Shown here one piece after another: positions 4,529 to 24,587 of a stretch of 25,943 nucleotides of DNA. The stretch comes from a virus. A model generated the notes under the pieces. That model was not told the DNA's origin, ran no database searches, and worked only from the letters and a program-made list of their open reading frames with translations. Each line of letters starts with the position of its first letter. Positions within the stretch are counted from its first letter, which is position 1. The position numbers and the translations under genes were made by a program. The stretch is taken from positions 1 through 25,943 of IMG/VR virus record IMGVR_UViG_3300046004_002748. One strand, given 5' to 3'.

Positions 4529-4977
4529 GCTACACCTATGCGCGCATCTCGGTGGGTTCGGCGATTGGCGAATTGCAGGGGCTGGCCGCGTGCGAATACG
4601 ACGAGGTTGGTCAGAAGGATTTGGATCACCTGAACATCGACTGGAAACGCTACTGCGAGCTGGATGCGGCGGGGAAATTAGCCACATTCATTGCCAAGCG
4701 TGACGGGGTGATTGTCGGTTACGCGAGTTTCATCGTGCAAACCCACATCCATTACTGCGAAGCACTGGTCGCCGCCAACAGCGCGGTCTATGTCGTGCCA
4801 GAGGCTCGGATCGGGCGTGTCGCGTTGAAGCTATTGCGCTATGCGGAGATCGGTTTGAAAGCCCAGGGCGTGAAGAAGATCTACTACCACGTGAAGCAAG
4901 AAAAAGACTTCGGCCGCCTGCTTGAGCACCTGGGTTATCGGGACAGCGAACGCCTCTTTGCCAAGGTAGTCCAGTAA
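4513..4977 (+). CDS. GNAT-fold N-acetyltransferase-like protein in the tail module
   Basis: A 154-residue protein. Residues 59-76 (FIAKRDGVIVGYASFIVQ) form the strand pair preceding the acetyl-CoA site. YVVPEARIGRVALKLLRYAE (93-112) is the motif A region, although the usual Q/RxxGxG/A loop is degenerate. FGRLLEHLGYRDSERLFAK (133-151) is the typical GNAT C-terminal segment. The ATG at 4513 overlaps the upstream gene by 16 nt; an in-frame TTG at 4525, overlapping the upstream stop, with a GGGG 6 nt before it, is an alternative start. The gene sits where lambda has K (an NlpC/P60 and JAMM peptidase), and its stop overlaps the start of J. Substrate unknown; it may act on a virion or host protein. 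Confidence 0.75.
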   Translation: MGRCLSYTYARISVGSAIGELQGLAACEYDEVGQKDLDHLNIDWKRYCELDAAGKLATFIAKRDGVIVGYASFIVQTHIHYCEALVAANSAVYVVPEARIGRVALKLLRYAEIGLKAQGVKKIYYHVKQEKDFGRLLEHLGYRDSERLFAKVVQ

Positions 4978-7946
4978 TGGCTGGCATTGTGATCGGTGCC
5001 ATTGTCGGCTCGGTGGTGTCGGAGGCCGTGGGCGCAGTGGTGGCCGATGCAGTATTGGGCATGGTGATCGAGTCCGGTATCACGGCAGCGGCAGCCGATG
5101 TGCTGGGGGCGTCACTTGCCACAGCCAGTTTCATTGGCGGGGCGACAGGCCTTGTAGCCGGTGGTGTGGCAAGCCTCGCTGTGCAGTCGGTGATCGGCAG
5201 CAACGGGCCAACGAGCGCTCAGTCGGCTGTGGCCGCTGCGCAAGCGCAGGGCATTCTCCTCAACTCGCAGAGCAACGTCGATCCGATCCCCGTGATCTAC
5301 GGACGACGACGCGTGGGCGGCACGCGGGTGCTGATCGAAGTGTCAGGAACCAGCAACGAATATCTGCACATCGTTGTTGTTCTCGCCGAGGGTCCGGTGG
5401 CTGCGATCGACAACGTGTATCTGGATGATCTGCTCGCGACCGATGCCAAGTTCGCGGGACTGGTGACAGTCAATAAGCACCTGGGCACCGCGAATGAAGC
5501 AGCCGACAGCGAGCTGATCAGTGCCGTGCCGAAATGGACCACCGAGTGCAAGCTCGCCAACTGCGCCTACGTCTACGTCAAGCTCAAATACGACAGCAAC
5601 GCGTTCTCGGGTTTGCCGACCATCACGGCGGACGTGCGCGGACGCACGCTCGTTGACCCGCGCGATGGACAGACCCGTTATACGAATAACGCGGCGCTGG
5701 CCGTACGTGATTACCTGACAAACCCACTCTACGGACGTGGCGTTGGAACAACCAACGTCGATGACCTGAGTTTCATAGCAGCAGCAAACGCCTGCGATGC
5801 GCGGATCACAGCGCCCGCATTCTCAGACACTTTTACCGCCGATGCGGCGAGCGCTACCTTGACCTTTGCGCAGTCGCTGCCAATCGATACCGGCGACGGC
5901 ATCAAAGTGAGTTCGGTAGCAACACTGCCAACGCCACTCACCGCCACGACAACCTACTACGCGATTAAGTCAACGGACACGGATTACCAGTTGGCAACGA
6001 GTGCGGCCAATGCGTTTGCGGGCATTGCCGTGGATATCACAAGCGCCGGTGTCGGCACGCACACGCTAACGCAAGCCGACTATGCGGCCTACACGTGCGA
6101 CGGCACGGTTGACACTAATCAGACGGCCTACGACAACATCCGGGCCTTGCTCACGGCGTGCCGCGGCATGCTCATTTTTAGCGGCGGAAAATATCGGTTG
6201 GTGCTCGATATCGCAGCTGCCGCCTCGAGCTTCGGATTTACGGAGAGCAACATCACCGGTTCCTGGGTCATCAGTCAGGCCGGCAAGCGTGCCAAATACA
6301 ACCGGGTGACGGCAGGGTTTTATAACCCCGCCAAGAAGTGGCAGCCGGATCTGGCGATGATCGAGTCGACGTTGTTGCGCGCGACCGACAATGCCTTGAT
6401 TCTGGAAGCGAAGATCGATCTGCCGTTCACCGCCAACAGTTACCGGGCGCAGAACATCGGCCAGTTGACCCTGAACCAGAGCCGCTATGGGCTGGTCGTC
6501 AAGTTCTCCGCGTTTCAGGAAGGCCTGCGCTGCGAGGTCGGCGATGTCGTGCCGATCACGCACTCGACGCCGGGTTGGAGCGCTAAGCTCTTTCGCATCC
6601 TGCAAATCGAAATCAAGGACAACGACGAGGTCTATGTCGTTGCCCGTGAATACAACGCCAGTATTTATACGCAGGCGGTATTGGCGCCGGCGGCGGTGAT
6701 TGCCGAATCGAACCTGCCGGATCCGTTTAGCGTGCCCACCGTGGCCGGACTCACCTTGGAGAGCGGCACGGCCGAGTTATTGCGCCTGGCCGATGGTTCG
6801 GTGATTTCGCGTATTCGTGTGGGCTGGACGGCGCCTACCGACATCTACGCGCAAAAAGGTCAGATCGAGGTGCAGTCGCGCCTAGCTAACGAATCGGCCT
6901 GGTCACCCGCAGATATCGTTGCAGCCGACCTCACGACCGCGTGGATCGCACCGGTGCAGGATAGCGTCAATGTTGAGGTGCGTGTGCGAGCGGTCAATTC
7001 GATCGGCGTGCGCGGGGACTGGACCCAAGCGAGCGTGGCTGTGGTGGGTAAAACCGCACCGCCATCGAACGTGCCGTGGTTACGCCTGGATGGCACACGG
7101 CTCACCTGGGGGGCAGTCGATGACATTGATCTGGCCGGTTACAGCGTGCGCTGGCAACCGGGGGCGAGTCGATCATGGGCGGACGCGCTTGAACTGCATA
7201 CCGGTTTGTTATCGGTTTCACCTTGGGATCTAGTCACCATTCCTTACGGCGCAGGCCAGATTCTGATCAAGGCGGTGGACACCACCGGCAACGAGAGCGT
7301 GGCGGTGACTGTCGTGTCCTGCAACCTTGGTGACGCGCCGGTTGAGAACATCTTTGCCAGCACAACCTTAAACAGCACGCCGGTTAATGCGATCGACGCC
7401 TCACGCATGTGGGGTAACCCCGCCTCCGAATTCTGGACGTCGGACGCGGCGGTGTTTCTCGTGCCGCAATACCAACCGATCGTCTGGACCGGGAGCACCG
7501 TCTTTGCCGATAGCGGCAGCCTGACACTCGCCGTCTCGGTGACCGGTTACGCGTGGAAGATCACGTGGAAGAAATCAACGGACGCCGCCTACGTGCCGTT
7601 TCCGGGTCGCGCCTGGGCGGATGCCGGTGTGACCTATCAGTTTCGCATCGACGTCGAGCAAAGCAGTCAGCCCGCATTTGTAGGCGCTGTCATTGCACAA
7701 ATCGATGTGCCGGACAAAACCATACGCCTGCCGAATGTCGCCATTGGAACAGGTGGCGCACGTCTGGCAATCGGTGCGGGTTGGAAAAGTGTCGTGATCG
7801 TGAACCTCACGCTGCAAGGCGATGGGGGATCAGCTACGACGGCACGTGTTCTCGATAAATTAACCAGCGGTCCGCTGGTGCAGTGTTTTAACGCCAGTGG
7901 CGCTGCCGCTGCCGGAACTGTTGACGCCTACGTACAAGGATATTGA
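4977..7946 (+). CDS. Tail tip / host-specificity protein J
   Basis: A 989-residue protein at the lambda J position. Residues 1-75 are a Gly/Ala/Val-rich hydrophobic stretch like that of lambda gpI or of J proteins that carry such a segment fused at the N terminus. Then follow PIPVIYGRRRVGGTRVLIE (103-121) and DYLTNPLYGRGVG (about 245), both typical of the J hub region. Residues ~282-365 form a separate beta-rich insert (FTADAASATLTF to GVGTHTL). Residues ~600-700 look like fibronectin type III (GSVISRIRVGWTAP, VEVRVRAVNSIGVRG), and a second such module spans ~705-790. The last ~160 residues are beta-rich and probably lie near the receptor-contacting end. It starts on ATG 4977 sharing a base with the GNAT stop. 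Confidence 0.9.
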   Translation: MAGIVIGAIVGSVVSEAVGAVVADAVLGMVIESGITAAAADVLGASLATASFIGGATGLVAGGVASLAVQSVIGSNGPTSAQSAVAAAQAQGILLNSQSNVDPIPVIYGRRRVGGTRVLIEVSGTSNEYLHIVVVLAEGPVAAIDNVYLDDLLATDAKFAGLVTVNKHLGTANEAADSELISAVPKWTTECKLANCAYVYVKLKYDSNAFSGLPTITADVRGRTLVDPRDGQTRYTNNAALAVRDYLTNPLYGRGVGTTNVDDLSFIAAANACDARITAPAFSDTFTADAASATLTFAQSLPIDTGDGIKVSSVATLPTPLTATTTYYAIKSTDTDYQLATSAANAFAGIAVDITSAGVGTHTLTQADYAAYTCDGTVDTNQTAYDNIRALLTACRGMLIFSGGKYRLVLDIAAAASSFGFTESNITGSWVISQAGKRAKYNRVTAGFYNPAKKWQPDLAMIESTLLRATDNALILEAKIDLPFTANSYRAQNIGQLTLNQSRYGLVVKFSAFQEGLRCEVGDVVPITHSTPGWSAKLFRILQIEIKDNDEVYVVAREYNASIYTQAVLAPAAVIAESNLPDPFSVPTVAGLTLESGTAELLRLADGSVISRIRVGWTAPTDIYAQKGQIEVQSRLANESAWSPADIVAADLTTAWIAPVQDSVNVEVRVRAVNSIGVRGDWTQASVAVVGKTAPPSNVPWLRLDGTRLTWGAVDDIDLAGYSVRWQPGASRSWADALELHTGLLSVSPWDLVTIPYGAGQILIKAVDTTGNESVAVTVVSCNLGDAPVENIFASTTLNSTPVNAIDASRMWGNPASEFWTSDAAVFLVPQYQPIVWTGSTVFADSGSLTLAVSVTGYAWKITWKKSTDAAYVPFPGRAWADAGVTYQFRIDVEQSSQPAFVGAVIAQIDVPDKTIRLPNVAIGTGGARLAIGAGWKSVVIVNLTLQGDGGSATTARVLDKLTSGPLVQCFNASGAAAAGTVDAYVQGY

Positions 7947-8462: not shown

Positions 8463-9248
8463 ATGCCCAACCTGATTCAAATCAAACGCTCGACCACCAC
8501 CGCCACACCGCCCACGCTGGCGGTAGGCGAACTGGCCTGGTCAGAACTCACTGACAATCTTTTTATCGGCGAGTCCGGCAACGTGGTGACCGCGATTGCG
8601 GGCCCTGGCACGTATCTTAAAAAAACTGAGGCTTATACCAAGGCCGAAACAGACACGCGAATTCAGGCAGTGGTGGGTGCTGCACCGGCGGCGCTCGATA
8701 CCTTGACCGAACTCGCTGCTGCTTTGGGTCAGGACGCCAATTACGCAGCCACCATTACCACGGCGCTGGCCGCCAAAGCGGCCAGTGATCTCTCCAACGT
8801 GGGCACGCTGCCGGCGGGGGTTGTGACCCAGTTGAAGGGTGCCACGGGAGCAACGGGTACTACCGGCGCGCAGGGCATTCAAGGTTTGACGGGGGCCACA
8901 GGGACTGCTGGTGCCACCGGCGCTACGGGGCCTACCGGAGCGCAGGGCATTCAAGGCCTTACCGGTGCGACTGGCGCTGCCTCGACCGTAGCAGGGCCCA
9001 CGGGTCCGACCGGAGCGACCGGCGCCAGTGGCACAACGGGGGCAACGGGTGCACAAGGTATTCAAGGTCTGACTGGTGCTACCGGCGCAGCTTCCACTGT
9101 AGCCGGCCCCACCGGGGCAACTGGTGCTACCGGACCTGCAGGCACCACCACCTGGTCGGGAATCACGACGAAGCCGACCACCTTGTCGGGCTTTGGTATC
9201 ACCGACGCACTGTCCACCAGCGCGACCATTGATGGCGGGTCGTTCTAG
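8463..9248 (+). CDS. Collagen-like tail fibre protein
   Basis: A 261-residue protein with GGAG 6 nt before its ATG. Residues 1-45 carry [20 protein letters not shown] and a following DNLFIGESG turn, an N-terminal attachment motif shared with the next gene and with phage receptor-binding proteins of the Mtd type. Residues ~53-115 hold a trimeric-fibre segment ([19 protein letters not shown]). Residues ~126-227 are Gly-X-Y repeats with three copies of [13 protein letters not shown], broken twice by AASTVA. The C terminus ([19 protein letters not shown]) is a common fibre ending. It is probably a trimeric side or tip fibre; collagen-like repeats can change length by recombination. Confidence 0.85.
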
Positions 9249-9250
9249 TC

Positions 9251-9445
9251 ATGGCCAACGCCATTCTGCATAAGCGCAGCAGCACGGCGACGGCTGTGCC
9301 AACGGCCGCGCAAGTCACGCTAGGCGAACTGGTGATGAACGTGGCCGACGGCAAACTTTATCTCAAACGCACAGACGGGGTGATCGTCACCTTTGTGCCG
9401 GGCTACGTGCCAGGCCAAGGGGATGCCGCACCGATGTGGAAATAA
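9251..9445 (+). CDS. 64-residue fibre N-terminal-like protein
   Basis: Starts 2 nt after the previous stop. Its sequence ILHKRSSTATAVPTA followed by LGELVMNVADGKLYLKR matches the N-terminal motif of the preceding fibre ([22 protein letters not shown]). It is a stand-alone copy of the beta-hairpin attachment module without a shaft. It may cap or adapt a fibre at the tail tip. It ends 13 nt before the next ATG. Confidence 0.7.
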   Translation: MANAILHKRSSTATAVPTAAQVTLGELVMNVADGKLYLKRTDGVIVTFVPGYVPGQGDAAPMWK

Positions 9446-9458
9446 CCGGAGACATTCA

Positions 9459-10196
9459 ATGACCGCCTTACCCTCAAAGCCCAGTTTCACCGGATCGACG
9501 GTGACGCAGGGGCAATTCAAAACTGCACTCGATAACCTCAACGATTATCTGACTGGCCTCTTCGGTGCAGATGGCACGGTGGGCACCGCCAGAAGCACGC
9601 TCAACATCGTCAACCCGAGTGACCCCACTTATACCCAGGTGGTCAACGCGTTGGGCTATACGCCGTATAACGCGGCCAGTGCAACGGCCAAGCTCGATAA
9701 ATCCGGCGGCACCATGACCGGCAGTATCACCATGAGCAGTGGCGCCTTGATCTATTCGAGTCAGGGTGGCGGTTCAGACAACGCCCGCAACACTGGCTAC
9801 AAGATGAATGACGGTCAGGACATCGGCGAGATGAACCGCTCGAGCCAGTATTACGACGACCGGGCCGCCAACTGCAATGGCTATGTGCCAAACGGCAACT
9901 GTCAGGGCAACAGCTTGTGGACCCCGCCGAACGGCAATTGGTGGGAATGGTATTCCGCCATCGGCCAGAGCGCTTGGCACAACAGCGGCTCATTCGACTA
10001 CGCCGGAGGCGCGACCTACGCCAACAACCCGGTCTCAGTTAGCTACAACTACGACGGCTATTACCTCGCCGCGGACGAGATTGGCGGCGGCGAATACCAC
10101 CGTAACTACCGCAACTGCAATTGCGGCGCGTTCAACTGCGTCACCAACTGCAACTGCAATTGCGACTGCAACTGCAACTGCGCCTGTTGCGACTGA
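9459..10196 (+). CDS. Tail fibre-like protein with a Cys-rich (Asn-Cys)n C terminus
   Basis: A 245-residue protein. ATG 9459 is chosen because GGAG lies at 9448-9451; the in-frame ATG at 9393 would sit inside the preceding gene. Residues ~18-95 are fibre-like: LNDYLTGLFGADGTVGTA, then ALGYTPYNAA and LDKSGGTMTGSI, a standard phage tail-fibre hallmark. Residues ~130-215 are Asn/Gly/Tyr/Trp-rich with Cys139 and Cys148. The last 26 residues (220-245) contain 11 cysteines, mostly as NC or DC pairs, ending CACCD. No other tail protein here shows this. Immediately downstream are an oxygenase and a radical SAM/SPASM enzyme. I infer that the tract is either post-translationally modified or binds metal; neither is proven. 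Confidence 0.85.
   Translation: MTALPSKPSFTGSTVTQGQFKTALDNLNDYLTGLFGADGTVGTARSTLNIVNPSDPTYTQVVNALGYTPYNAASATAKLDKSGGTMTGSITMSSGALIYSSQGGGSDNARNTGYKMNDGQDIGEMNRSSQYYDDRAANCNGYVPNGNCQGNSLWTPPNGNWWEWYSAIGQSAWHNSGSFDYAGGATYANNPVSVSYNYDGYYLAADEIGGGEYHRNYRNCNCGAFNCVTNCNCNCDCNCNCACCD
10146..10181 (+). repeat. Six in-frame hexamer repeats (consensus AACTGC)
   Basis: Six consecutive 6-bp units: four AACTGC, one AATTGC and one GACTGC. They encode five Asn-Cys and one Asp-Cys dipeptides. Unit length is a multiple of three, so slippage would change Cys number without breaking the frame. Confidence 0.9.
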
Positions 10197-10203
10197 GGCC
10201 ACC

Positions 10204-10884
10204 ATGCTAAACAAAATCATAGGCGTTTCGCTAGAAAAAGCGCTGGACGCCGACATCGTCTGGACAAAAACCCCTGACGGCTATATCGCCTCCTGTGATG
10301 CAGAAAAGAAACCGTTAGTCATCACCATCGACGAATTGCCGCCGGACGCACGGCGCGACGATCACAGCTTGTTCACGTTTGTGACTGGCGATGGCATAGA
10401 CCCGGCGTGGATTAACACCTATCAACTATCCCAGCCATGGCGTCGATCGACGGTCGATGCGATGCGATTTGCGGGCTATCGCTGGTACGCCAACTTGGTC
10501 GTGCCGTTCGCCGATAGCCCGCCCACACTGGTTTTATTCGGGCGTGGCGAATCCGCTTTTACGGCCGCTGAAGTGACCGAGGTCTACGATCACCGGACCT
10601 ACGACGCAACCATCCGACAAACGCTACGCTCCGATCTGCGATTGAGTGTAACGGCGCAAAACGGTATCGCGCAGCTCGAGGCACAACTGTTGGAGCCCGG
10701 CGGCGCGGTCTGCACGCGCACGGGTGTGACCGTGTACTGGGAGAGCACCGGCGGATATTTTTTAAGCGCTCGGACCCAAAGCATCGACGGCAAAGCGACT
10801 GCGGTGCTTAAAGACTACGTCCAACCGTGCGTTGTTAAAGCCGGCTTCCGGCATTTCCCAGCCAAATCAGAGGTCACACTATGA
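10204..10884 (+). CDS. Putative virion protein with C-terminal Ig-like (Big-1 type) domain
   Basis: A 226-residue protein from ATG 10204, with GAGG at 10195-10198 overlapping the stop of the fibre gene. Residues ~146-226 look like a bacterial Ig-like domain: LRLSVTAQNGIAQLEAQL, then TGVTVYWESTGGYFLSA and DGKATAVLKDYV, the usual G-V-x-V / G-x-A-T-A-x-L pattern of invasin-type repeats. The N-terminal 145 residues are not recognised; they contain several aromatic residues and a WINTYQLSQPW segment. Ig-like domains are common on phage surfaces. Its position between the Cys-rich fibre and the modifying enzymes suggests a tip or fibre partner, or a second substrate. It overlaps the oxygenase gene by ATGA. 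Confidence 0.7.
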   Translation: MLNKIIGVSLEKALDADIVWTKTPDGYIASCDAEKKPLVITIDELPPDARRDDHSLFTFVTGDGIDPAWINTYQLSQPWRRSTVDAMRFAGYRWYANLVVPFADSPPTLVLFGRGESAFTAAEVTEVYDHRTYDATIRQTLRSDLRLSVTAQNGIAQLEAQLLEPGGAVCTRTGVTVYWESTGGYFLSARTQSIDGKATAVLKDYVQPCVVKAGFRHFPAKSEVTL

Positions 10885-11465
10885 GCCTGCAAGTAATCGA
10901 CGACGCAGTGCCCGCGGCACTGTTTGTGCAATTTCAGGACTGGTTTGCGAACCTCGCGATGTTGCCTGGTTGGCGCGCGAGCAAAACAGCGCCGGGTTCG
11001 TTCTGGCATCGAAACTTCGTGCTCTCCGGTATTTTTAATCATCACTATAGCCCCGGCGCAGTCAATCCGGGCATGACGCACGAAGCGTTGATCTGTCAAA
11101 CGCACCCACTGGCCCAGATCGCGCGTCAGTTTAGCGAACAGCATTTTGCAGGCCTCGCCTTTAGCCGGGTCTGGATCAACGTCCAGGGCTTTGGTGAGGA
11201 CGCCGCAGTACATCGGGATTTCGAGCGTGAATATGACGGGCGATCACGTGCAGCGGTCTGGTATCCGATGCCAGTGTGGGAGTTGGATTGGGCCGGTGAT
11301 TTCACTGTGTGGAATGACGCGAACGAGATTGTGCGGTCGGTAGCGATCAAACCAAACCGACTGGTGATTTTCGATGGCAATCCGCCGCATGCCGCCAGAC
11401 CCCTTTCCCGATTTGCCACCGAGCGGCGCGTATCAGTGGCGTTCGGCCGCGAAGTGATGGAGTAA
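10881..11465 (+). CDS. 2-oxoglutarate/Fe(II)-dependent oxygenase
   Basis: A 194-residue protein of the double-stranded beta-helix oxygenase superfamily, close to the prolyl 4-hydroxylase-like group. The iron triad is visible: H111-x-D113 in AVHRDFERE and H170 in FDGNPPHAARP. Arg182 or Arg183 in ERRVSVAF is the likely 2-oxoglutarate carboxylate ligand. INVQGFGEDAAVHRD is the typical strand leading into the HxD. Such enzymes hydroxylate Pro, Asn, Asp or other side chains, or catalyse other C-H oxidations. The start overlaps the previous stop (ATGA), and the 61-residue gene follows 3 nt after its stop. The neighbourhood makes a virion protein, including the Asn/Asp/Cys-rich tail, a plausible substrate; this is inference. 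Confidence 0.85.
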   Translation: MSLQVIDDAVPAALFVQFQDWFANLAMLPGWRASKTAPGSFWHRNFVLSGIFNHHYSPGAVNPGMTHEALICQTHPLAQIARQFSEQHFAGLAFSRVWINVQGFGEDAAVHRDFEREYDGRSRAAVWYPMPVWELDWAGDFTVWNDANEIVRSVAIKPNRLVIFDGNPPHAARPLSRFATERRVSVAFGREVME

Positions 11466-11468
11466 GCG

Positions 11469-11654
11469 ATGCACATTAAAAAAACCATCGAAAAAATCGA
11501 CGAAACCCATATCCGGATGATTGTAGAAGTGATGGATGCAGAGCGCGTGCGCGGCCGCCGGACTTACAACCTCGTCAAATCCCCGACGCAGAATACCGAA
11601 GAAGTGTGTCGTACGGCCTGCCCTGAAGCGTTTGCCGAAGCCACAACATCATGA
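11469..11654 (+). CDS. 61-residue protein between oxygenase and radical SAM genes
   Basis: Starts 3 nt after the oxygenase stop with a GGAG-type site at its end (11459-11462), and its own stop overlaps the radical SAM start (ATGA at 11651-11654). I do not recognise the family. The first half is charged with alternating hydrophobics (MHIKKTIEKIDETHIRMIVE), compatible with a small beta-hairpin/helix fold, and a CX3C pair occurs at residues 47-51 (VCRTAC). Gene packing argues that it is real and translated with its neighbours. It could be a peptide-binding partner for the radical SAM enzyme, but it is shorter than PqqD-like recognition domains (about 90 residues). Confidence 0.7.
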   Translation: MHIKKTIEKIDETHIRMIVEVMDAERVRGRRTYNLVKSPTQNTEEVCRTACPEAFAEATTS

Positions 11655-13003
11655 CCGCCTTCACTATTCACGCCCGACGCGCAGCCGATGGGGTCGAGAC
11701 CACGTTTAGCTACGACAACCAGACTTCAATGTTCCTGCGTGCGGATGGCACACCGGTGATTCCGAGCCGGCCGATGCAGTTTGGCGACGCCGAGGTCGTG
11801 TCCGTCAACCAGCCTGGGCGCAAGGGTGACATCAAAACCCTCAAGATCAGTCTGGGCCTATCCTGCAATTACGAGTGCGGCTACTGCAGCCAGCGTTTTG
11901 TGCCACACGCAGAGCAAACCAATCCTGGCGATGTCGGCCCGTTCGTGGCGCAACTGACCGCGAGCCTGACAGCACCGCCCGCGCGGATCGAATTCTGGGG
12001 TGGTGAGCCGTTTGTGTATTGGAAGACGTTGAAACCGCTGGCCGAAGCGCTCCGCGCGCTGTATCCGGCGGCGCATTTCAACATCATCACCAACGGCAGT
12101 CTCCTCGATCTCGACAAAAACGCCTGGCTCGTGGAGTTGGGATTTAGCGTGGGTCTGTCGCATGACGGGCCCGGTTATCACGCCCGCGGTGCGGACCCGC
12201 TGGATGACCCGGAGAAACTGGCGGCGATCATGGATTTGTGGGCGCGCTTGAAGCCGCTCGGGCGTATGAGTGTGAACGCCATGATGCACCGGGACAATCA
12301 GAGTCGGGCCAATGTGCAGGCCTGGTTGCAGGCGCGCTTTGGAAATGATGTGCCGATTGGTGAAGGCGCCTACATCGACCCCTACGACGAAGGCGGCATG
12401 GCAGCTGTGCTGCGAGATCCAGCCGAGCACATGCTGTACCGCGCCCGGGCGTTTACCGAATTGCGCCAAGGGCGGGTCGCGAATTTCTCCATCGCACGAC
12501 AGAAGATTCAAGGCTTCGTTGATTCCATCCGCAACCAGCGGCCGGCCAGCAGCGTGGGCCAGAAGTGCGGCATGGACAAAGCGGACAACCTGGCCGTCGA
12601 TCTTGCCGGCAATGTCATCACCTGTCAGAACGTATCGGCGAAGGCCGTCGCACCGAACGGACAGGCCCACAAAATCGGCCACCTCTCGGATCTGCCGAGC
12701 GTACAACTCAAAACAGCCACCCACTGGAGCCAGCGCCGCGACTGTGCAGCCTGTCCGGTGCTGCAGTTGTGCCAGGGCAGTTGCATGTTTCTCGAAGGGC
12801 CGCTCTGGGAGGCTGGGTGCGACTCGGCCTATTCCGACAATGTGCCGTTCTTCGCAGCGGCAATCGAATTTCTGACCGGTTGCACGCCGTATTACATCGA
12901 AGGCGAATTCAGGGACGACCGCAAGGACCTGTTCGGCCGGGTGCGCGGAGTCCCGGCAGTTAAGACAAAACGCGTCATTGAGATTCACGCCGTGCCTGCA
13001 TAG
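11651..13003 (+). CDS. Radical SAM enzyme with SPASM domain
   Basis: A 450-residue protein. The radical SAM cluster motif CX3CX2C is C72, C76, C79 (SCNYECGYCSQ), followed by the SAM-binding GGEP at 117-120 and the FNIITNGS strand. The C-terminal SPASM domain is complete: C306...G320-x4-C325, then C365-x2-C368-x5-C374-x3-C378 and C390, so it can hold two auxiliary Fe-S clusters. Known SPASM enzymes modify ribosomal peptides (thioether or C-C crosslinks), activate sulfatases, or make peptide cofactors. Residues 1-65 are an extra N-terminal segment of unknown role. It is last in the run of overlapping genes that starts with the Cys-rich fibre, and is followed by a terminator 21 nt downstream. 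The peptide substrate is inferred to be encoded in the same operon. Confidence 0.93.
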   Translation: MTAFTIHARRAADGVETTFSYDNQTSMFLRADGTPVIPSRPMQFGDAEVVSVNQPGRKGDIKTLKISLGLSCNYECGYCSQRFVPHAEQTNPGDVGPFVAQLTASLTAPPARIEFWGGEPFVYWKTLKPLAEALRALYPAAHFNIITNGSLLDLDKNAWLVELGFSVGLSHDGPGYHARGADPLDDPEKLAAIMDLWARLKPLGRMSVNAMMHRDNQSRANVQAWLQARFGNDVPIGEGAYIDPYDEGGMAAVLRDPAEHMLYRARAFTELRQGRVANFSIARQKIQGFVDSIRNQRPASSVGQKCGMDKADNLAVDLAGNVITCQNVSAKAVAPNGQAHKIGHLSDLPSVQLKTATHWSQRRDCAACPVLQLCQGSCMFLEGPLWEAGCDSAYSDNVPFFAAAIEFLTGCTPYYIEGEFRDDRKDLFGRVRGVPAVKTKRVIEIHAVPA

Positions 13004-14464: not shown

Positions 14465-15589
14465 CTACTGAAGCAAAGGCTCGCAAAAACGCAGTAGCTG
14501 AGATCGAATCTCAGCGGGCGATGCAGTCAGATCGACCGTGGCAAATCGGATGCGATGCCCTTGGATTATCACCGTTTCATCAACAGCCTCGCCGACGGAA
14601 GGGTGAAGCAGCAACCCACTGGCGCAATCCGCAAGCGGATCGCCACGTCCGACCTGGGATCGAAGGTAGGCGTAGATCTGATAAACGTACCCGCTGCGCA
14701 GCGTTTCCTCTCGATACCAGCCCTTAGTGACGATTGACGTGAACTTGGTGTCGATGATGATTCGCCGACCGGTCGGCGGGTGATCGAGCACCACGTCGGT
14801 CCGCATCGCCGGCATGATCTTGTCAATTCCCGACGTCTTCTCTTCTACCTGCCAGCTGAGGGTACCGGCGCACCGAACACGCCAACCTTGAGGCTGCAGA
14901 ACAACGTCGTAGAAGCCACCTACGGCTTTCTCGAACAGTCGGCGGACCCACGTGACCTCGCGGTCCGGCAAAGTAAGCACGTTCATCCCCGCTGTCTCAG
15001 TTGGCAAGGCAAGATCAAAGGCCAGCTTTGCCGCAGCCACCATGAATCTCTCGTCCGCGTCATTACGGCCAAAACGATCGGTGCTCATTTCGGTGCGAGA
15101 GGGAGCATCACCAGAGACACCCATGTTCTTCATGGCATTCGCCAACGACCTGCAACGGTGCGCGACATCTTTTCGCCTCGCGACCCTTGAGATGGTCTCC
15201 AATGCGGCACGGACAAAGCGATTGCGATGCGTGTCGATGGTCAACTCATCAAATCGACATGCCACCAGGCCACGATCCAGCAACTGATGTCGCTCAGTGT
15301 TCAGGAGATCGATTCGCCCGCGTACGCGATTGAGGACGGCGTCCCGAGAACGATATCCAAGCCTCAGACGGCGGCGCTGCCTGACTTCGACTGCGTGCGC
15401 CAGGATCTCGGCGACGAGATCAGGCAGATCGTCTGGGTTGTCCTCCAGTCCGACGTTGCCGATCCCGCGACTGCGGAACAAGTCGGAGGCATACAGCATC
15501 AGCAACCACAGATTGCGCAGCGGAATACGTCCGATGTAGCCTTCTGCGTCTACCGACAAATTCTCGACTTGCACCGCGACCGCAGTCAT
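14465..15589 (-). CDS. mcrC: McrC-like nuclease subunit of type IV restriction system
   Basis: A 374-residue protein starting at ATG 15589-15587, which overlaps the McrB stop (TGATG); a GTG three bases upstream is an alternative. Residues 21-38 (RIPLRNLWLLMLYASDLF) are the recognisable McrC N-terminal block. The PD-(D/E)xK nuclease core is visible as MRTDVVLDHP (D265) and IIIDTKFTS (D280, K282), with the later YVYQIYAYL helix typical of the fold. McrC associates with the McrB GTPase ring and cuts DNA carrying modified cytosines. It is convergent with the phage lysis genes, whose last stop is 50 bp away. Confidence 0.9.
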   Translation of the reverse strand: MTAVAVQVENLSVDAEGYIGRIPLRNLWLLMLYASDLFRSRGIGNVGLEDNPDDLPDLVAEILAHAVEVRQRRRLRLGYRSRDAVLNRVRGRIDLLNTERHQLLDRGLVACRFDELTIDTHRNRFVRAALETISRVARRKDVAHRCRSLANAMKNMGVSGDAPSRTEMSTDRFGRNDADERFMVAAAKLAFDLALPTETAGMNVLTLPDREVTWVRRLFEKAVGGFYDVVLQPQGWRVRCAGTLSWQVEEKTSGIDKIMPAMRTDVVLDHPPTGRRIIIDTKFTSIVTKGWYREETLRSGYVYQIYAYLRSQVGRGDPLADCASGLLLHPSVGEAVDETVIIQGHRIRFATVDLTASPAEIRSQLLRFCEPLLQ

Positions 15590-17808
15590 CACCAGATCTG
15601 AATCAGCCGTGCGCGCGCCTTCTGCGCTTCGTCAGGTGCGTCGAACCAATACTCGTCTAGCAGAGGCCCGATCTCCGTCTCGACCACCTGCTTGAACCAC
15701 TTCTTCGTGTTCCCAGCTTCCAGTCTGTAGGCAGGCGTCACGTAGCTGTGGCCGATCCGGAACTGCCTTCCCAGACGGGCGTCAGCCGCGATCTGGTCAT
15801 TCAGTTCAACGATCCGATGCTCGATATCCGCAACCAGAGCCGGATCGACAGCACACTCCTTGACCACCCAATCCCGCCACGCGGTACCCAGCTTCGGCTC
15901 CAGACCAATGAAGGCAAAACGGCGACGCAGCGCGAGGTCTACAAGAGCCAGCGACCGGTCTGCGATGTTCATCGTGCCGATCACATAGAGATTCTCGGGG
16001 ACGTGGACAGGGCGCCGCTTGCCGTCAGCATCCGGGTAGCACAGCTCCAACGCCTCGTTGGGCGTGCGCTTCCCTGCCTCCAGCAGCGTTAACAGTTCGC
16101 CGAAGATCTGCGCTGGGTTACCACGGTTGATCTCCTCAATCACCACGACAAACTTCGATGACGGCTCTTTGCTGGCAGCCTTGATCGCTTCCATGAATAC
16201 CCCGTCTGCCAGCGACAACTTGCCTTCTCCAGTCGGGCGCCAGCCTCGGACGAAGTCCTCGTAGGAGAGGTTGGGATGGAACTGAACCGCTCGGACTTTG
16301 CTGTCGTCCTTCTGCCCCATTAGCGCGAACGCCAGTCGCTTCGCCAGCCACGTCTTGCCAGTGCCCGGTGGCCCTTGAAGGATCAGGTTTTTCTTGGTTC
16401 GTAGCCGATCAAGCAAAAGATCAATTTCGGATCGATCAAGGAAGCATCCGTCTTTCAGAATGTCATCGACCGAGAATGAAATGATCGGTGCGGCTGCTTG
16501 AAAGGCTTCACGAACCTCACCGCCTGTTGCCTGTTCCTCAGCGGCACCATCAACATCACCGGGTAAAACTGGCTCGTCGACAGGGTCCTTGTACATCCAG
16601 GACGCCAGCGACAGATCTGGAAAGCTGTGGACCGGATAGCCGTCTTCGCCGAAGCGCGCACGCAGATCATCCACCAGCTTCAGATAACTCCGAGCATCAC
16701 AGGGCCCTTGCTGACCACTGATGGCGACATTCAGGCTGAGCCGCTTGTTGATGTAGTGGCGCGACTGGCTGTCGAGTGTCAGAAACTCCCACGGATGCGT
16801 CCAGTAAAGGCCTGTCGAGAGATTCCAGGCAACGCCCCACACTTGGGTAGCCTCATCGTAAGCCTGGATGAACGAATCTCGAGCGTCCGATTGGTCGCCG
16901 TCCGCCATCTTGCTCGCGGCAACGAATACCTTCCACAACGCGGCGATGTCACCGGCCCCGCGTTTATCGGCATAGGCGAAGAACCAAGATCGTTGATTGT
17001 TGAGGACGGGGATGCCTTCGAATGAGGGCGGCACAGGGACTGTCACACCCAGCATTTTGGCAAGCTCACCCGCGATGATCTTGCGGTTAGCATCTGTCAT
17101 GGAACGGTTGAAGGTTCCCATCGTGGTGAACGGGCAAATATCCCGCAGCGGGCCGCTGGTGCCATCGGGAAACTTATCCTGCAGGTAGCCCAATCCAGGC
17201 GCGCGCGAGGCCATTTCGTGGATGCCCTCGATGAGTGGGGTTCGGTCGTCCGCGTAGGTCAGCAGCTTTTCGGCCACCGCCTCGTAGAAGTCCGTCCATT
17301 GGAAACGCTGCTTTTCTGGCGAAGTAGTCCCGTAACGCTCTCGCCAGAAGGGTTCGTTGCGAAAACGATCTAAATCCTGCGGTTTACCTTCGAACGCGAA
17401 CGCGATCAGCGCATCGTTCATCCAGTCGCCAGGTAGCACACGCCAGATCGTTCCCCTGTGGGTGTAAAAGTACCACTCACGCACCGGTTCGACCTTAGTC
17501 CAGTCTACCTTCACTCGTTTTCCGTCGTTCAGATTCTCTGTGATCGTGCCGACTGCTTTGATCCCCATGACTGACACCGCACGGCCTCGGCTATCGAAAG
17601 GCAGACCGTGTTTGCGTGTGTAAGAGGATTTGATGGCGATCCGTTCTCCTGGCCGCATGGACAGCACCACATCGAGGTGCTTGTCGTCGTAGCCATTTTC
17701 CCAAATACCCTCTGACAGAAATCTAGGCATCTGGTCGTCAGTGCCGCCGTAGCTCGCGCCAACGAACCAACTGACAGGCGCGGCTGGTTGATCATTAGTT
17801 GTTGTCAT
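15589..17808 (-). CDS. mcrB: McrB-like AAA+ GTPase of type IV restriction system
   Basis: A 739-residue protein with a strong AGGAGG 4 nt before its start (CCTCCT at 17813-17818 on the plus strand). The AAA+ motor is C-terminal: Walker A GPPGTGKT (479-486), Walker B FVVVIEEINRG (553-563), and MNIADR (613-618), the McrB signature for GTP specificity, followed by LALRRRFAF. Residues ~15-130 resemble a PUA/EVE-like recognition domain (MGIKAVGTITENLNDGK, then EWYFYTHRGTIWRV); this is an inference from pattern. Residues ~130-440 are an additional region absent from the short E. coli McrB. It would bind modified DNA and drive McrC cleavage after translocation collision. Confidence 0.92.
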   Translation of the reverse strand: MTTTNDQPAAPVSWFVGASYGGTDDQMPRFLSEGIWENGYDDKHLDVVLSMRPGERIAIKSSYTRKHGLPFDSRGRAVSVMGIKAVGTITENLNDGKRVKVDWTKVEPVREWYFYTHRGTIWRVLPGDWMNDALIAFAFEGKPQDLDRFRNEPFWRERYGTTSPEKQRFQWTDFYEAVAEKLLTYADDRTPLIEGIHEMASRAPGLGYLQDKFPDGTSGPLRDICPFTTMGTFNRSMTDANRKIIAGELAKMLGVTVPVPPSFEGIPVLNNQRSWFFAYADKRGAGDIAALWKVFVAASKMADGDQSDARDSFIQAYDEATQVWGVAWNLSTGLYWTHPWEFLTLDSQSRHYINKRLSLNVAISGQQGPCDARSYLKLVDDLRARFGEDGYPVHSFPDLSLASWMYKDPVDEPVLPGDVDGAAEEQATGGEVREAFQAAAPIISFSVDDILKDGCFLDRSEIDLLLDRLRTKKNLILQGPPGTGKTWLAKRLAFALMGQKDDSKVRAVQFHPNLSYEDFVRGWRPTGEGKLSLADGVFMEAIKAASKEPSSKFVVVIEEINRGNPAQIFGELLTLLEAGKRTPNEALELCYPDADGKRRPVHVPENLYVIGTMNIADRSLALVDLALRRRFAFIGLEPKLGTAWRDWVVKECAVDPALVADIEHRIVELNDQIAADARLGRQFRIGHSYVTPAYRLEAGNTKKWFKQVVETEIGPLLDEYWFDAPDEAQKARARLIQIW

Positions 17809-20965: not shown

Positions 20966-20982
20966 GACCACAGGAGAACCCC

Positions 20983-23046
20983 ATGGCACGACCCAAAAAA
21001 GCCCAGACCGAAGTAGCAGCCAACAAGAGCCCCGTTGTCTCCGAGGAGACGGGCGTCCTCAAGAGCTTGTTGCACACCCTATCGGGGGCCGGCTTCGAAC
21101 AACAGAACGAGCTCAAGCCAAGCGAAGCTGGAATGTCTGCGGCTATCGCTTGGGGGCGCCACGAGGGCATCGAGACCCCGCGTGTGCTGGCGTTGGTCCT
21201 GCCAGCAGGCGCTTGGGACCGCAGTAATGCCGACTCGGTGCAGATGCTTTCCTATACGCTTCCGCCAGCCGAAACCGCACCCGACCAGTTCCCGCAGTTC
21301 GCCGCGGTGCGTGACGCCGAAGGCAAGCTCGAGGCGTTTTTTGATCTTGCCTACCCGCCCCATCAGATCGACAAGATGCCCGGGCTTCGTGAGATTAATG
21401 AATACAAGCGCATTAAGGCTGACCCGACCTACCGCTGGTCGATGAAGATGTACGACCGCCTGATGAAGGGTTTCAACGCGCTGCACGAGCGCATCTACCA
21501 GACGCATAAGGACAGGGTGAATGGCAAGAACGACATCATCGAGGAGGTCGCGAAATTACTTTTCCTTGAGTCGTTCCGGCTGCATCACGAGGGCGATCTG
21601 ACCTTTGAGCACGAGGGAAAAAAGCTCGATCTACGGGACGTCTTCACCACCGCTTATGTGAAGGCGAAGGGCGCGGCTGCGGTCGCCGCCATTCAGTCCG
21701 GGTTCGAGCACGTCAAAGGGCATCCGGACTACGTTGTCACTGATGATGCTGGCGAGAAGCACCCGATCTTCGACAAGAACACCCACCTTCGCCTTGCGCA
21801 GCCTGGCAACTACGAGGCGGTGCTCTCACTCATTCAGGACCTCGGGCCCGTCACCGACAACCGCGGCGGCATCGTGAAGAAGCAGGGCACGCTCGCGGAC
21901 GTTGCCGCTGATGTGCTCGGCCGTGCGTTCGACGTCTTCCTCCGTGCCAACTTCGAATCAAAGGGCGGACTCGGAATTTACCTAACGCCCGCGCCGGTGA
22001 AGCAGGCGATGCTGGCGATGGCGTTCCACGACCTCAAGGAGAGCACCACCGACGCCGCTGGCCTCGTCGCGCGCGACGGCAAGGGCCGGCCGTTATTTCA
22101 GTTTTGCGATCCCACGTGCGGGAGTGCAGGCTTCGTCTCCGTTGCGCTGAGCCATCTGAAGCGCGCTCTGGACGAGATAGGTGGCAAGGCAACCGCGAGC
22201 GATGACGCGCGCAAGAAACTTTTCGCTGATTTGTGTGAGCACAGCTTCGTTGGAGGTGACGCATCCCCTCAGATGGTGATGTTAGCTCGCGTAAATATGG
22301 CTCTACTTGGTGCACCGAAGGCACGAATCTTTTATACGCAGAACTCGCTCACCAGTCCTCAGCTTAAACCCGGAAGCTATGACCTTATCTGCACAAATCC
22401 CCCCTTCGGCACGCCTAAATTCAGTAAAGGTCAGGACGAAGCAAAAAAGAATCACGAGCAGGCGATGGAGCGCATCCTCGAAACCTACCGGTCCGACCTC
22501 ACCCCGCGCGAGGGACGCGGCGGCGGTTTCGATTACTCGCCTTCTGTTACAGGTCTCGCGATGGGCGGATCACCTAACAGAAAAGGTGTCTGGAACAAGG
22601 CGTCGACAAACACCGATCCCGCAGTGTTGTTCATTGATCGCTGCCTTCAACTGCTGAAGCCTGGCGGACGGCTGCTGATCATTTTGCCGGATGGTGTGCT
22701 CTGCAACTCCGGCGACCGCTACGTGCGCGAGTACATCATGGGCACAAAAGACGAGGCTACCGGTGAGTTTCACGGTGGCAAGGCCATTGTGAAGGCCGTA
22801 ATTAGTCTGCCAGCCGATGCATTCAAGCTTTCGGGTACGGGCGCGAAGACCAGTGTTCTCTATCTCCAGAAGCGCCACGCTCGAAAAGATGATCCCGATA
22901 AATTTCAGGACGAGCCGCAAACCGATGTGTTTATGGCTGTTGCCGAAACGCTCGGGTACATCGTCAAGAACAATGTCGAGGACTACAGTGCCGGCGTTCC
23001 AAATGACCTTGCCTCGATAGTCGGCGCGTACATACGGGGGGAATGA
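20983..23046 (+). CDS. N6-adenine DNA methyltransferase (HsdM-like)
   Basis: A 687-residue protein from ATG 20983 with AGGAG at 20972-20976; the open frame extends further upstream to 20524, but that part lies over two other genes. The SAM-binding motif I is FCDPTCGSAGF (374-384) and the catalytic motif IV is NPPFG (472-476), the gamma-class N6-adenine order used by HsdM. LGIYLTPAPVKQAM (about 331-344) is the family block before motif I. The first ~150 residues are an extension beyond a typical ~500-residue HsdM (VLKSLLHTLSGAGFEQQNEL). No nuclease or helicase motif is fused. It probably methylates adenine at sites chosen by one or both neighbouring HsdS-like proteins. Confidence 0.92.
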   Translation: MARPKKAQTEVAANKSPVVSEETGVLKSLLHTLSGAGFEQQNELKPSEAGMSAAIAWGRHEGIETPRVLALVLPAGAWDRSNADSVQMLSYTLPPAETAPDQFPQFAAVRDAEGKLEAFFDLAYPPHQIDKMPGLREINEYKRIKADPTYRWSMKMYDRLMKGFNALHERIYQTHKDRVNGKNDIIEEVAKLLFLESFRLHHEGDLTFEHEGKKLDLRDVFTTAYVKAKGAAAVAAIQSGFEHVKGHPDYVVTDDAGEKHPIFDKNTHLRLAQPGNYEAVLSLIQDLGPVTDNRGGIVKKQGTLADVAADVLGRAFDVFLRANFESKGGLGIYLTPAPVKQAMLAMAFHDLKESTTDAAGLVARDGKGRPLFQFCDPTCGSAGFVSVALSHLKRALDEIGGKATASDDARKKLFADLCEHSFVGGDASPQMVMLARVNMALLGAPKARIFYTQNSLTSPQLKPGSYDLICTNPPFGTPKFSKGQDEAKKNHEQAMERILETYRSDLTPREGRGGGFDYSPSVTGLAMGGSPNRKGVWNKASTNTDPAVLFIDRCLQLLKPGGRLLIILPDGVLCNSGDRYVREYIMGTKDEATGEFHGGKAIVKAVISLPADAFKLSGTGAKTSVLYLQKRHARKDDPDKFQDEPQTDVFMAVAETLGYIVKNNVEDYSAGVPNDLASIVGAYIRGE

Positions 23047-24587
23047 TGGATTTCTCTAGGGTGACCCGTCAGCTCCTCACGGAGCGGCTTGACGCTGAGT
23101 TCTACCGACCCGCTTTCCTAGCGAACGATAAACTGCTCCGCGCGCTTGGTGTTTGCGTCCCACTTTCGGAGGCAACGACAGAGATTCAGCTTGGATATAC
23201 CGGGCCAACCGAGGAATACTATTCAGACGGCCGCTCTGGGGCCTACTACCTCTCCAGCAAAAACATCGTTGACGGATGGGTGGAGCTCACCGATGGCACT
23301 GATCGCATCAGCGTTGCGGCCCACAACAACCAGCTCCGCAAGACGCAGGTCAGATCTGGCGATCTCCTTATAAGCCGCACCGGTTCCGTCGGCAAGTGCG
23401 CGGTTCTATTTGACAGCACTTGCGACTACAACATTGCTGCGCACCTAATTGCATTGCGCATTAATCACGAGTTCGACTCCGCTTTCCTTGGTGCTTTTTT
23501 CAATTCGATGCACGGCAACCAGCAATCTGTTCGCCTACAACGCGGGACCATCATCCACGGTCTCAGCGTCTATGACGTTCCTGAGATGCTCGTGCCACGG
23601 TTCAGCGCTGGATGTCAGCGTTACATCGGGTACAAGGTTCGCCAGGCAGAGCGATTGCATTCGCGGGCTCGTGTTTTCGAAGCGCGTGTCGCGAAGATCC
23701 ATGCGAATTACATCACACTGCCGGTGGGGATCGACTTCAGCAAGCGTACTCGGCGATTGCCTTCACGCGACCTAACAGAGCGGCTCGATGCTCACTTCTA
23801 TCCGGCAGCAGTCGAACAGTATTTCAAGCAGGTTGTGGGACAGCCAAAGTCGCTTGAAAAACTGACATTTCTCGTGTCGAACGGACAGACCCAACGAGAG
23901 GCTGAGGTCGGGGTGCTCCAGGCTACCGTGACAAACCTCGGTCGGAGCTTCCTCGAAGGGGAATTGCGTACCGTCGAGCGTCCGAGCGGCGACTCGCGAA
24001 TGCTCAGTGCGCACGACCTGCTCCTTTGCAATGCGGCACATAACAAAAGCTATATCGGACGTGACGTAACTTATTGCCAAACGGATGCCGGCGTTTACCC
24101 ATCGACGGAGGTGATGGTTCTTCGGGTGGATCGTGAGCAGGTCCCAGCTTCATTTGTCAGGCAGTATCTCAAGTCAGACATCGGTTTCCTGCAGATTCAG
24201 TCGACGATTCGTGGCATCACCGCGCACTCTTATCCAGGTGATGTGAGGCTCATTAAAGTTCCGGTTCCAGACGTGCCGACAGGTGAACGTGCCGCATGGT
24301 TCGCGACCGACGACCAGATGCTTCGCGCGGGCCAGTGTGTGGATGCGGCAAAGCTCCTAACTGCTGCAGCGACTCAGCTGGTCGAACTGCTGATCGAAGG
24401 TGAGCGCTCGGAGGCAGACTTTGTCGCCGCACAGAAAGGGCTAGAAGCCGGTGATCAAACCCTTGATCGTGCGGTGCTGCAAACACTGAGGCGTGGCGGT
24501 AACGGGGATGGACCGGCGCTATTCTCGGACCTGGAGGCCTTCTACGCACTCCTCGACGAGGTGGATAAGGCTGGGGGTGGTGGCTAA
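23043..24587 (+). CDS. HsdS-like DNA specificity protein 2
   Basis: A 514-residue protein overlapping the methyltransferase stop (ATGATGGA, with two possible ATGs at 23043 and 23046). Two homologous halves each begin with the same motif: LTERLDAEFYRPAF (about 12-25) and LTERLDAHFYPAAV (about 244-257). The first target-recognition-like domain has YYLSSKNIVDG and SGDLLISRTGSVGKCAVL, classic for HsdS. The second has SAHDLLLCNAAHNKSYIG in the equivalent place, followed by IRGITAHSYPGDVRLIKVPV. This is the more canonical of the two specificity proteins and probably sets the methylation target. The next gene starts on its stop codon (TAATG). Confidence 0.85.
   Translation: MMDFSRVTRQLLTERLDAEFYRPAFLANDKLLRALGVCVPLSEATTEIQLGYTGPTEEYYSDGRSGAYYLSSKNIVDGWVELTDGTDRISVAAHNNQLRKTQVRSGDLLISRTGSVGKCAVLFDSTCDYNIAAHLIALRINHEFDSAFLGAFFNSMHGNQQSVRLQRGTIIHGLSVYDVPEMLVPRFSAGCQRYIGYKVRQAERLHSRARVFEARVAKIHANYITLPVGIDFSKRTRRLPSRDLTERLDAHFYPAAVEQYFKQVVGQPKSLEKLTFLVSNGQTQREAEVGVLQATVTNLGRSFLEGELRTVERPSGDSRMLSAHDLLLCNAAHNKSYIGRDVTYCQTDAGVYPSTEVMVLRVDREQVPASFVRQYLKSDIGFLQIQSTIRGITAHSYPGDVRLIKVPVPDVPTGERAAWFATDDQMLRAGQCVDAAKLLTAAATQLVELLIEGERSEADFVAAQKGLEAGDQTLDRAVLQTLRRGGNGDGPALFSDLEAFYALLDEVDKAGGGG

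Follow-up and report, generated by a model that had tools for sequence, protein, structure and literature searches.

Alternating Asn-Cys tails of phage fibres are paired with a radical SAM/SPASM gene and are probable substrates of its enzyme

The window, that is, the whole stretch of DNA that was analysed, is a 25.9-kb virus record (25,943 nucleotides) carrying the tail and lysis genes of a siphovirus-like phage. The following features were identified:

within the window: tape measure (PF09718 match)
4977-7946: TipJ-like protein
8463-9248: collagen-like Gly-X-Y fibre (Pfam Collagen, E 4.5e-14)
9251-9445: fibre-like protein, 64 aa
9459-10196, + strand: tail-fibre/tail-tip protein, 245 aa, bearing the Cys tail
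10113-10193, + strand: Cys tail, NCNC-GAF-NC-VT-(NC)3-DC-(NC)2-AC-CD, its strictly alternating part at 10146-10187
10204-10884, + strand: conserved partner protein, 226 aa, with a C-terminal Ig-like domain
10881-11465, + strand: 2OG-Fe(II) oxygenase (PF13640, 34.5 bits)
11469-11654, + strand: small conserved protein, 61 aa, overlapping the start of the radical SAM gene
11651-13003, + strand: radical SAM/SPASM enzyme (phrog_1802, E 8.9e-55)
14465-17808 (- strand) and 20977-24587 (+ strand): restriction/defence genes

The fibre gene was recognised by its open reading frame and translation, by a weak tail-fibre match in PHROG (phrog_8443, E 0.0047) and by relatives with the same tail; as a query against annotated phages its sequence gave no match, and it matches 33 loci in IMG/VR. 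Further along, the lysis genes are directly followed by two defence systems, one an McrBC-type pair matching PF10117 and AAA_5, the other a type I restriction-modification set with its methyltransferase (1e-255) and specificity subunit (6e-127), and the record therefore probably runs from a prophage into a host defence region or else carries defence genes of its own.

The fibre ends in ...HRNYRNCNCGAFNCVTNCNCNCDCNCNCACCD. An earlier note on this DNA had pointed to 11 cysteines in residues 220-245, and these are real and C-terminal: they occupy positions 220, 222, 227, 231, 233, 235, 237, 239, 241, 243 and 244 of a protein with 13 cysteines in all. The tract, which the note had opened at 10116, starts one codon earlier, at 10113, with a second patch (N219-C220-N221-C222), and alternation is strict over residues 230-243. 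Its description of Asn or Asp before most cysteines holds for the mostly Asn positions and for Asp at 236, but residue 242 is Ala. None of 20,000 composition-preserving shuffles gave 11 cysteines in 26 residues and only one of 20,000 held five consecutive xC units, which rules out a chance origin.

Phages with an xC tail and a downstream radical SAM gene are many and come mostly from environmental DNA. The radical SAM enzyme matches 305 loci in IMG/VR, of which 80 were retained, and over all loci read there are 139 distinct tail-bearing proteins, in which the tail usually lies 0-4 residues from the C-terminus. It takes the form (xC)3-10, with x far more often Asn than Ala or Asp, and is carried by many different phage fibres as well as by proteins of 65-130 aa; the consensus among relatives of the window fibre is NCNCG-x-F-NC-x-T/S-(xC)n. 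As to whether cysteine spacing or only cysteine number is conserved, it is the i, i+2 spacing that is constant; tails have anywhere from 3 to 10 units. Among the protein bodies preceding the tail, at least 12 groups with no detectable similarity to one another can be distinguished, the largest having 119 members because common fibre domains join them.

Before the cysteines stand N (540), A (79), D (72) and Q (13), with S 2, G 2, H 1, K 0 and I 0, so that S, K, H and I are rare despite being single-base neighbours of Asn codons. The repetitiveness of the tract might suggest a low-complexity DNA repeat or a misread frame. Adjacent NC units in the homologues, however, are identical at the DNA level in 122 of 382 cases, against about 150 expected from each gene's codon usage, and the repeat is thus kept at the protein level and not by slippage; the preference for Asn, Ala and Asp before Cys also speaks against a DNA repeat, and the tract is in the frame of the fibre. 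Slippage or misreading, refuted by these three observations, has a negligible probability. A scan of host genomes with the pattern TGYNNN was uninformative because of microsatellites.

A 24-base DNA pattern for NCNCNCNC was scanned in IMG/VR, a design that avoids selecting loci by their enzyme, and at least 120 stretches were obtained. Among the matches listed, in-frame NCNCNCNC ORFs that had 4.5 kb or more of downstream sequence were followed by a same-strand phrog_1802 radical SAM gene in 47 of 48 cases, and those with at least 3 kb in 67 of 71. The lone exception of the 48 (L197) is, by eye, an unrelated small heat-shock-like protein, and one miss at the shorter distance (L222) has a tail identical to that of L064, where the radical SAM gene is 5.4 kb away. 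Among the listed matches that are not in-frame C-terminal tails, which served as controls, the gene was present in 1 of 24, and this single positive is apparently L226, a true tail followed by a Hint domain that the position filter misplaced.

In the direction from enzyme to tail, loci with at least 3 kb upstream were counted. The earlier note had named homologues with the same enzymes but no tract as evidence against its reading; a tail lies upstream in 55 of the 61 IMG/VR radical SAM loci, and in at least 57 after inspection of the misses. Of these six, two (L013 and L020) carry a tail farther off, at about 6 kb upstream; that of L033 is degenerate (TACNCAGGACDCG), and none is visible on the partial contigs L006, L066 and L080. 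Radical SAM loci in bacterial genomes (again with at least 3 kb upstream) have the tail in 23 of 27 cases, and a comparable C-terminal run occurs in 11 of 1,764 opposite-strand ORFs, taken as background. The radical SAM gene begins 45-72 bases past the tract in some loci, and one locus (L106) has two tail-enzyme pairs. The bacterial copies, mainly in Burkholderiales and Rhodospirillales, are presumably prophages. The tail is tied to one enzyme family, and the pairing is near-obligate in both directions.

The window enzyme, the presumed maturase of the tail, has intact cofactor motifs. In alignments of 114 and 62 sequences, C72, C76 and C79 of the CX3CX2C cluster motif are invariant, as are seven SPASM cysteines (C306, C325, C365, C368, C374, C378 and C390) and G320, in agreement with the SPASM motif CX9-15GX4C...CX2CX5CX3C...C; the SPASM model TIGR04085 scores 31.8 bits (cut-off 27). 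The closest fold to its AF2 model (pLDDT 95.3) is that of CteB, the thermocellin thioether enzyme (Z 24.0, rmsd 4.1, 355 residues), followed by ChlB (Z 21.9) and anSME (Z 21.1), with TigE and SuiB also similar. Since anSME and ChlB share the fold at close Z ranks, the fold alone leaves the reaction unfixed. The top NCBIfam scores are those of the geopeptide maturase and PapB, both far under their cut-offs (46.1 bits against 340 for the PapB-family model NF047865). Before residue 60 the model has three strands only, in which no clear RRE was recognised. For the NCBIfam names FlmC and FlmE, no source paper was found in the open-licence literature.

Q326, which is 99% conserved, aligns with the catalytic residue of anSME, the Asp directly after the second SPASM Cys (D277 in anSMEcpe), and the sulfatase motif C-x-P/A-x-R is absent from the tail. 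Both facts disfavour formylglycine formation of the sulfatase-maturase type, and the label 'anaerobic sulfatase-maturating enzyme' on the phage JWF homologue is probably wrong in function because Gln326 replaces the catalytic Asp. The earlier note had proposed that the tract suits regular cross-linking; now that a radical SAM/SPASM enzyme related to makers of Cys thioethers is seen to accompany the tract nearly always, this idea gains strong indirect support.

The pair sits within a larger cassette. Its recurrent order is the tail protein, an Ig-like partner, at least one 2OG-Fe(II) oxygenase, sometimes a protein of 61-77 aa, and then the radical SAM enzyme, and the genes from 10204 to 13003 match this order, with ORF ends overlapping at 10881 and at 11651. 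The partner family (cluster 0, 83 members) follows the tail gene in most loci. The window partner, modelled by AF2 at pLDDT 88.9 with a novel N-terminal part, has no Pfam match, and Foldseek gives only partial intimin/Ig-like matches and unnamed phage proteins; it is possibly a fibre chaperone or maturation partner. The oxygenase, above the PF13640 gathering cut-off of 27 bits and with HRD and PHAARPLSR motifs, is likely a second tailoring enzyme. Related oxygenases lie between tail and radical SAM gene in most loci (clusters 1, 5, 6 and 10; cluster 5 is above its Pfam cut-off, cluster 1 matches PF13759 below the cut-off, and 6 and 10 were recognised by eye). None of the four clusters was detected in 49 of the 139 tail loci, some of them truncated, and hydroxylation may therefore not be essential everywhere. 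The Asn fraction of the tail showed no link to oxygenase presence (mean 0.79 with, 0.75 without). Relatives of the 61-aa protein (cluster 4) occupy the same place in 12 sequences, and some loci include a further radical SAM gene (cluster 8) or a protein that, judged by eye only, looks like a desaturase (cluster 7). In one locus (L004:3125-4642), two desaturase-like proteins with histidine boxes, likewise recognised by eye and without a Pfam match, lie between fibre and radical SAM gene.

In at least eight fibres among the relatives, though not in the window, a Hint domain of the self-cleaving type directly follows the tail; two are from the cultivated Achromobacter phages JWF (KP202971) and 2-1. 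In JWF, 2-1, L045, L226, L256, L262, L263, L264 and L265, the last Cys of the tail is also where the Hint-like domain starts. The Pfam Hint matches of JWF (E 3e-12) and 2-1 (E 5e-12) are above the cut-off, and the others are below it. Hint domains cleave at their starting Cys, and by analogy cleavage could expose the Cys tail as a new C-terminus, which would make these fibres self-trimming. Because lineages reach a terminal tail either by the end of the gene or by presumed self-cleavage, a free C-terminal tail seems to matter. A Hint domain directly after an xC tail was also noted at L235:5844-7295 (Achromobacter phage JWF), at L300:5635-7077 and in L272.

Several known systems resemble this arrangement in part. 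QhpD is a radical SAM enzyme that installs Cys-Asp/Glu thioethers in an entire protein, not in a short peptide, during maturation of quinohemoprotein amine dehydrogenase; the window enzyme matches its model TIGR03906 weakly (28 bits against a cut-off of 453), and substrate and host context differ here. The fold is shared with anSME (Z about 21), which also acts on a protein Cys, but the window enzyme has Gln for the catalytic Asp. As in ranthipeptide and sactipeptide RiPPs, a gene for a Cys-rich substrate adjoins a radical SAM gene; in place of a short precursor with a removed leader, however, the window has a 245-aa fibre, although versions of 65-130 aa exist elsewhere. The PapB/freyrasin and CteB/thermocellin ranthipeptide systems likewise have a Cys-rich substrate beside a radical SAM enzyme with SPASM auxiliary-cluster cysteines, but here the substrate would be the tail at the C-terminus of a virion fibre that runs to hundreds of residues and not a leader-core peptide, and a strict xC repeat, extra oxygenases, an Ig-like partner and Hint domains are added, with no RRE seen. 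PapB takes Cys-Xn-Asp substrates with n anywhere from 0 to 6 (PMC9413430), which makes a link between adjacent residues chemically feasible. The window enzyme is a member of phrog_1802, annotated in PHROG as 'radical SAM domain-containing protein' without a stated function, to which the pairing with a Cys tail is added here.

The tail is very probably a substrate of the radical SAM enzyme, and the locus, in our favoured reading, is a RiPP-like cassette in which the tract is the 'core', modified at the C-terminal tip of a tail fibre; we consider this reading probable. The fibre would be made with an extended C-terminal tail alternating a small residue and Cys, and the enzyme at 11651-13003 would abstract hydrogen from carbons of Asn, Asp or Ala and join them to the Cys sulphurs as ranthionine- or sactionine-like thioethers. 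Gene association carries no information on which atoms are joined, and thioether cross-linking, the likeliest reaction, is favoured at a strength only somewhat better than even. As Cys is invariant and its partner is Asn, Asp or Ala, hardly ever Gly or Ser, the acceptor may be the beta carbon, as in ranthipeptides, with an alpha linkage as the alternative; the frequency of Ala before Cys indicates that an Asn or Asp side chain is not required. The 2OG oxygenase probably hydroxylates residues of the same fibre protein, although such oxygenases may act on the tail or on the upstream collagen-like fibre (8463-9248), which could be an alternative substrate. The order of these steps is tentative, and the proteins at 10204 and 11469 may help with binding or assembly. 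A rigid, chemically inert tip for host contact would result, proof against reduction and resistant to proteases; that role is suggested by position only and extends to adsorption. Where a Hint domain comes after the tail, as in some of the phages, it would presumably be cut off, exposing the finished C-terminus.

Among other accounts, the most serious is that the enzyme modifies the tail by a different reaction (epimerisation, C-C or ether cross-links, Asn beta-modification or Cys oxidation), yielding for example a beta-helical or membrane-active tip, with alternating D/L residues if epimerised. It fits the same gene association; a strict two-residue period would suit alternating stereochemistry, and the similarly folded SPASM enzymes ChlB, TigE and SuiB do varied chemistry. 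Yet thioether enzymes are among the nearest characterised relatives, by sequence as well as by fold, the invariant tail position is Cys and not its partner residue, the GAF and VT spacers break the two-residue register in the window family, and a formylglycine variant conflicts with Q326 and the missing C-x-P/A-x-R. We regard this account as rather unlikely. The cysteines might instead bind a metal or Fe-S array in the virion tip, as the earlier note had also considered, the radical SAM enzyme being incidental or a helper in cluster assembly. The Cys density of the tail and a trimer that possibly clusters the tails would agree with this, but the neighbourhood gives no pointer to metal handling: the recurrent neighbours include no metal chaperone or transporter and are oxygenases and a radical enzyme resembling peptide maturases, and the tail has no Cys-His pattern. 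This makes a metal array quite improbable. The trimer with over 30 thiols pictured in that note is an assumption; if the enzyme acts, free thiols in that number are unlikely.

It is more improbable still that the radical SAM and oxygenase genes benefit the host as auxiliary metabolic genes, with the tail an unrelated structural feature. Two published sets of phage radical SAM genes were described with no mention of a fibre link: those in pelagimyophage host-recognition regions were noted without function (PMC7029224), and the many radical SAM genes of Campylobacter phages were described as metabolic (PMC2853527). The fixed gene order and the near-obligate two-way association oppose this explanation, and Campylobacter phage CP220, in which part of the radical SAM genes stand with sugar-related ones, was rejected as an instance of the same system, no (xC)4 run being present in its first 100 kb.

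The gene content of these loci suggests that phages remodel, by chemical means, the structure with which they contact the host. We give about even chances to the broader view that a class of phages builds its receptor-binding tips by dedicated chemistry, the virion-protein counterpart of RiPP biosynthesis. Such phages would place a modular (xC)n acceptor on unrelated fibres, to be cross-linked by the radical SAM enzyme and decorated by oxygenases, with Hint domains freeing the C-terminus in some, and a tip so modified may be able to bind or breach the host surface as plain polypeptide cannot. The chemistry would be a variant of known radical SAM protein and peptide maturation, and the dedicated tailoring of virion tips would be new biology; no link between phage fibres and radical SAM modification was found in the open-licence literature, which is weak evidence of novelty. 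If correct, this would explain what a large orphan group of radical SAM genes in phages, now filed as metabolic or unknown, is for, place enzymatic tailoring among the means by which phages are known to shape host recognition, and offer xCxCxC as short, genetically fusible tags that an enzyme may cross-link.

Two kinds of small protein were observed in addition. One comprises Cys-rich proteins (130-175 aa; L137, L159, L132, L221, L245 and L213) that have several xC patches, lie about 15-30 bases upstream of the radical SAM gene and resemble classical RiPP precursors more closely. Proteins of 67-79 aa with ...ST(AC)NCNCNCNC near their end (L121, L162, L127, L170 and L186) form a separate sub-branch, several of them adjoining a series of divergent radical SAM genes.
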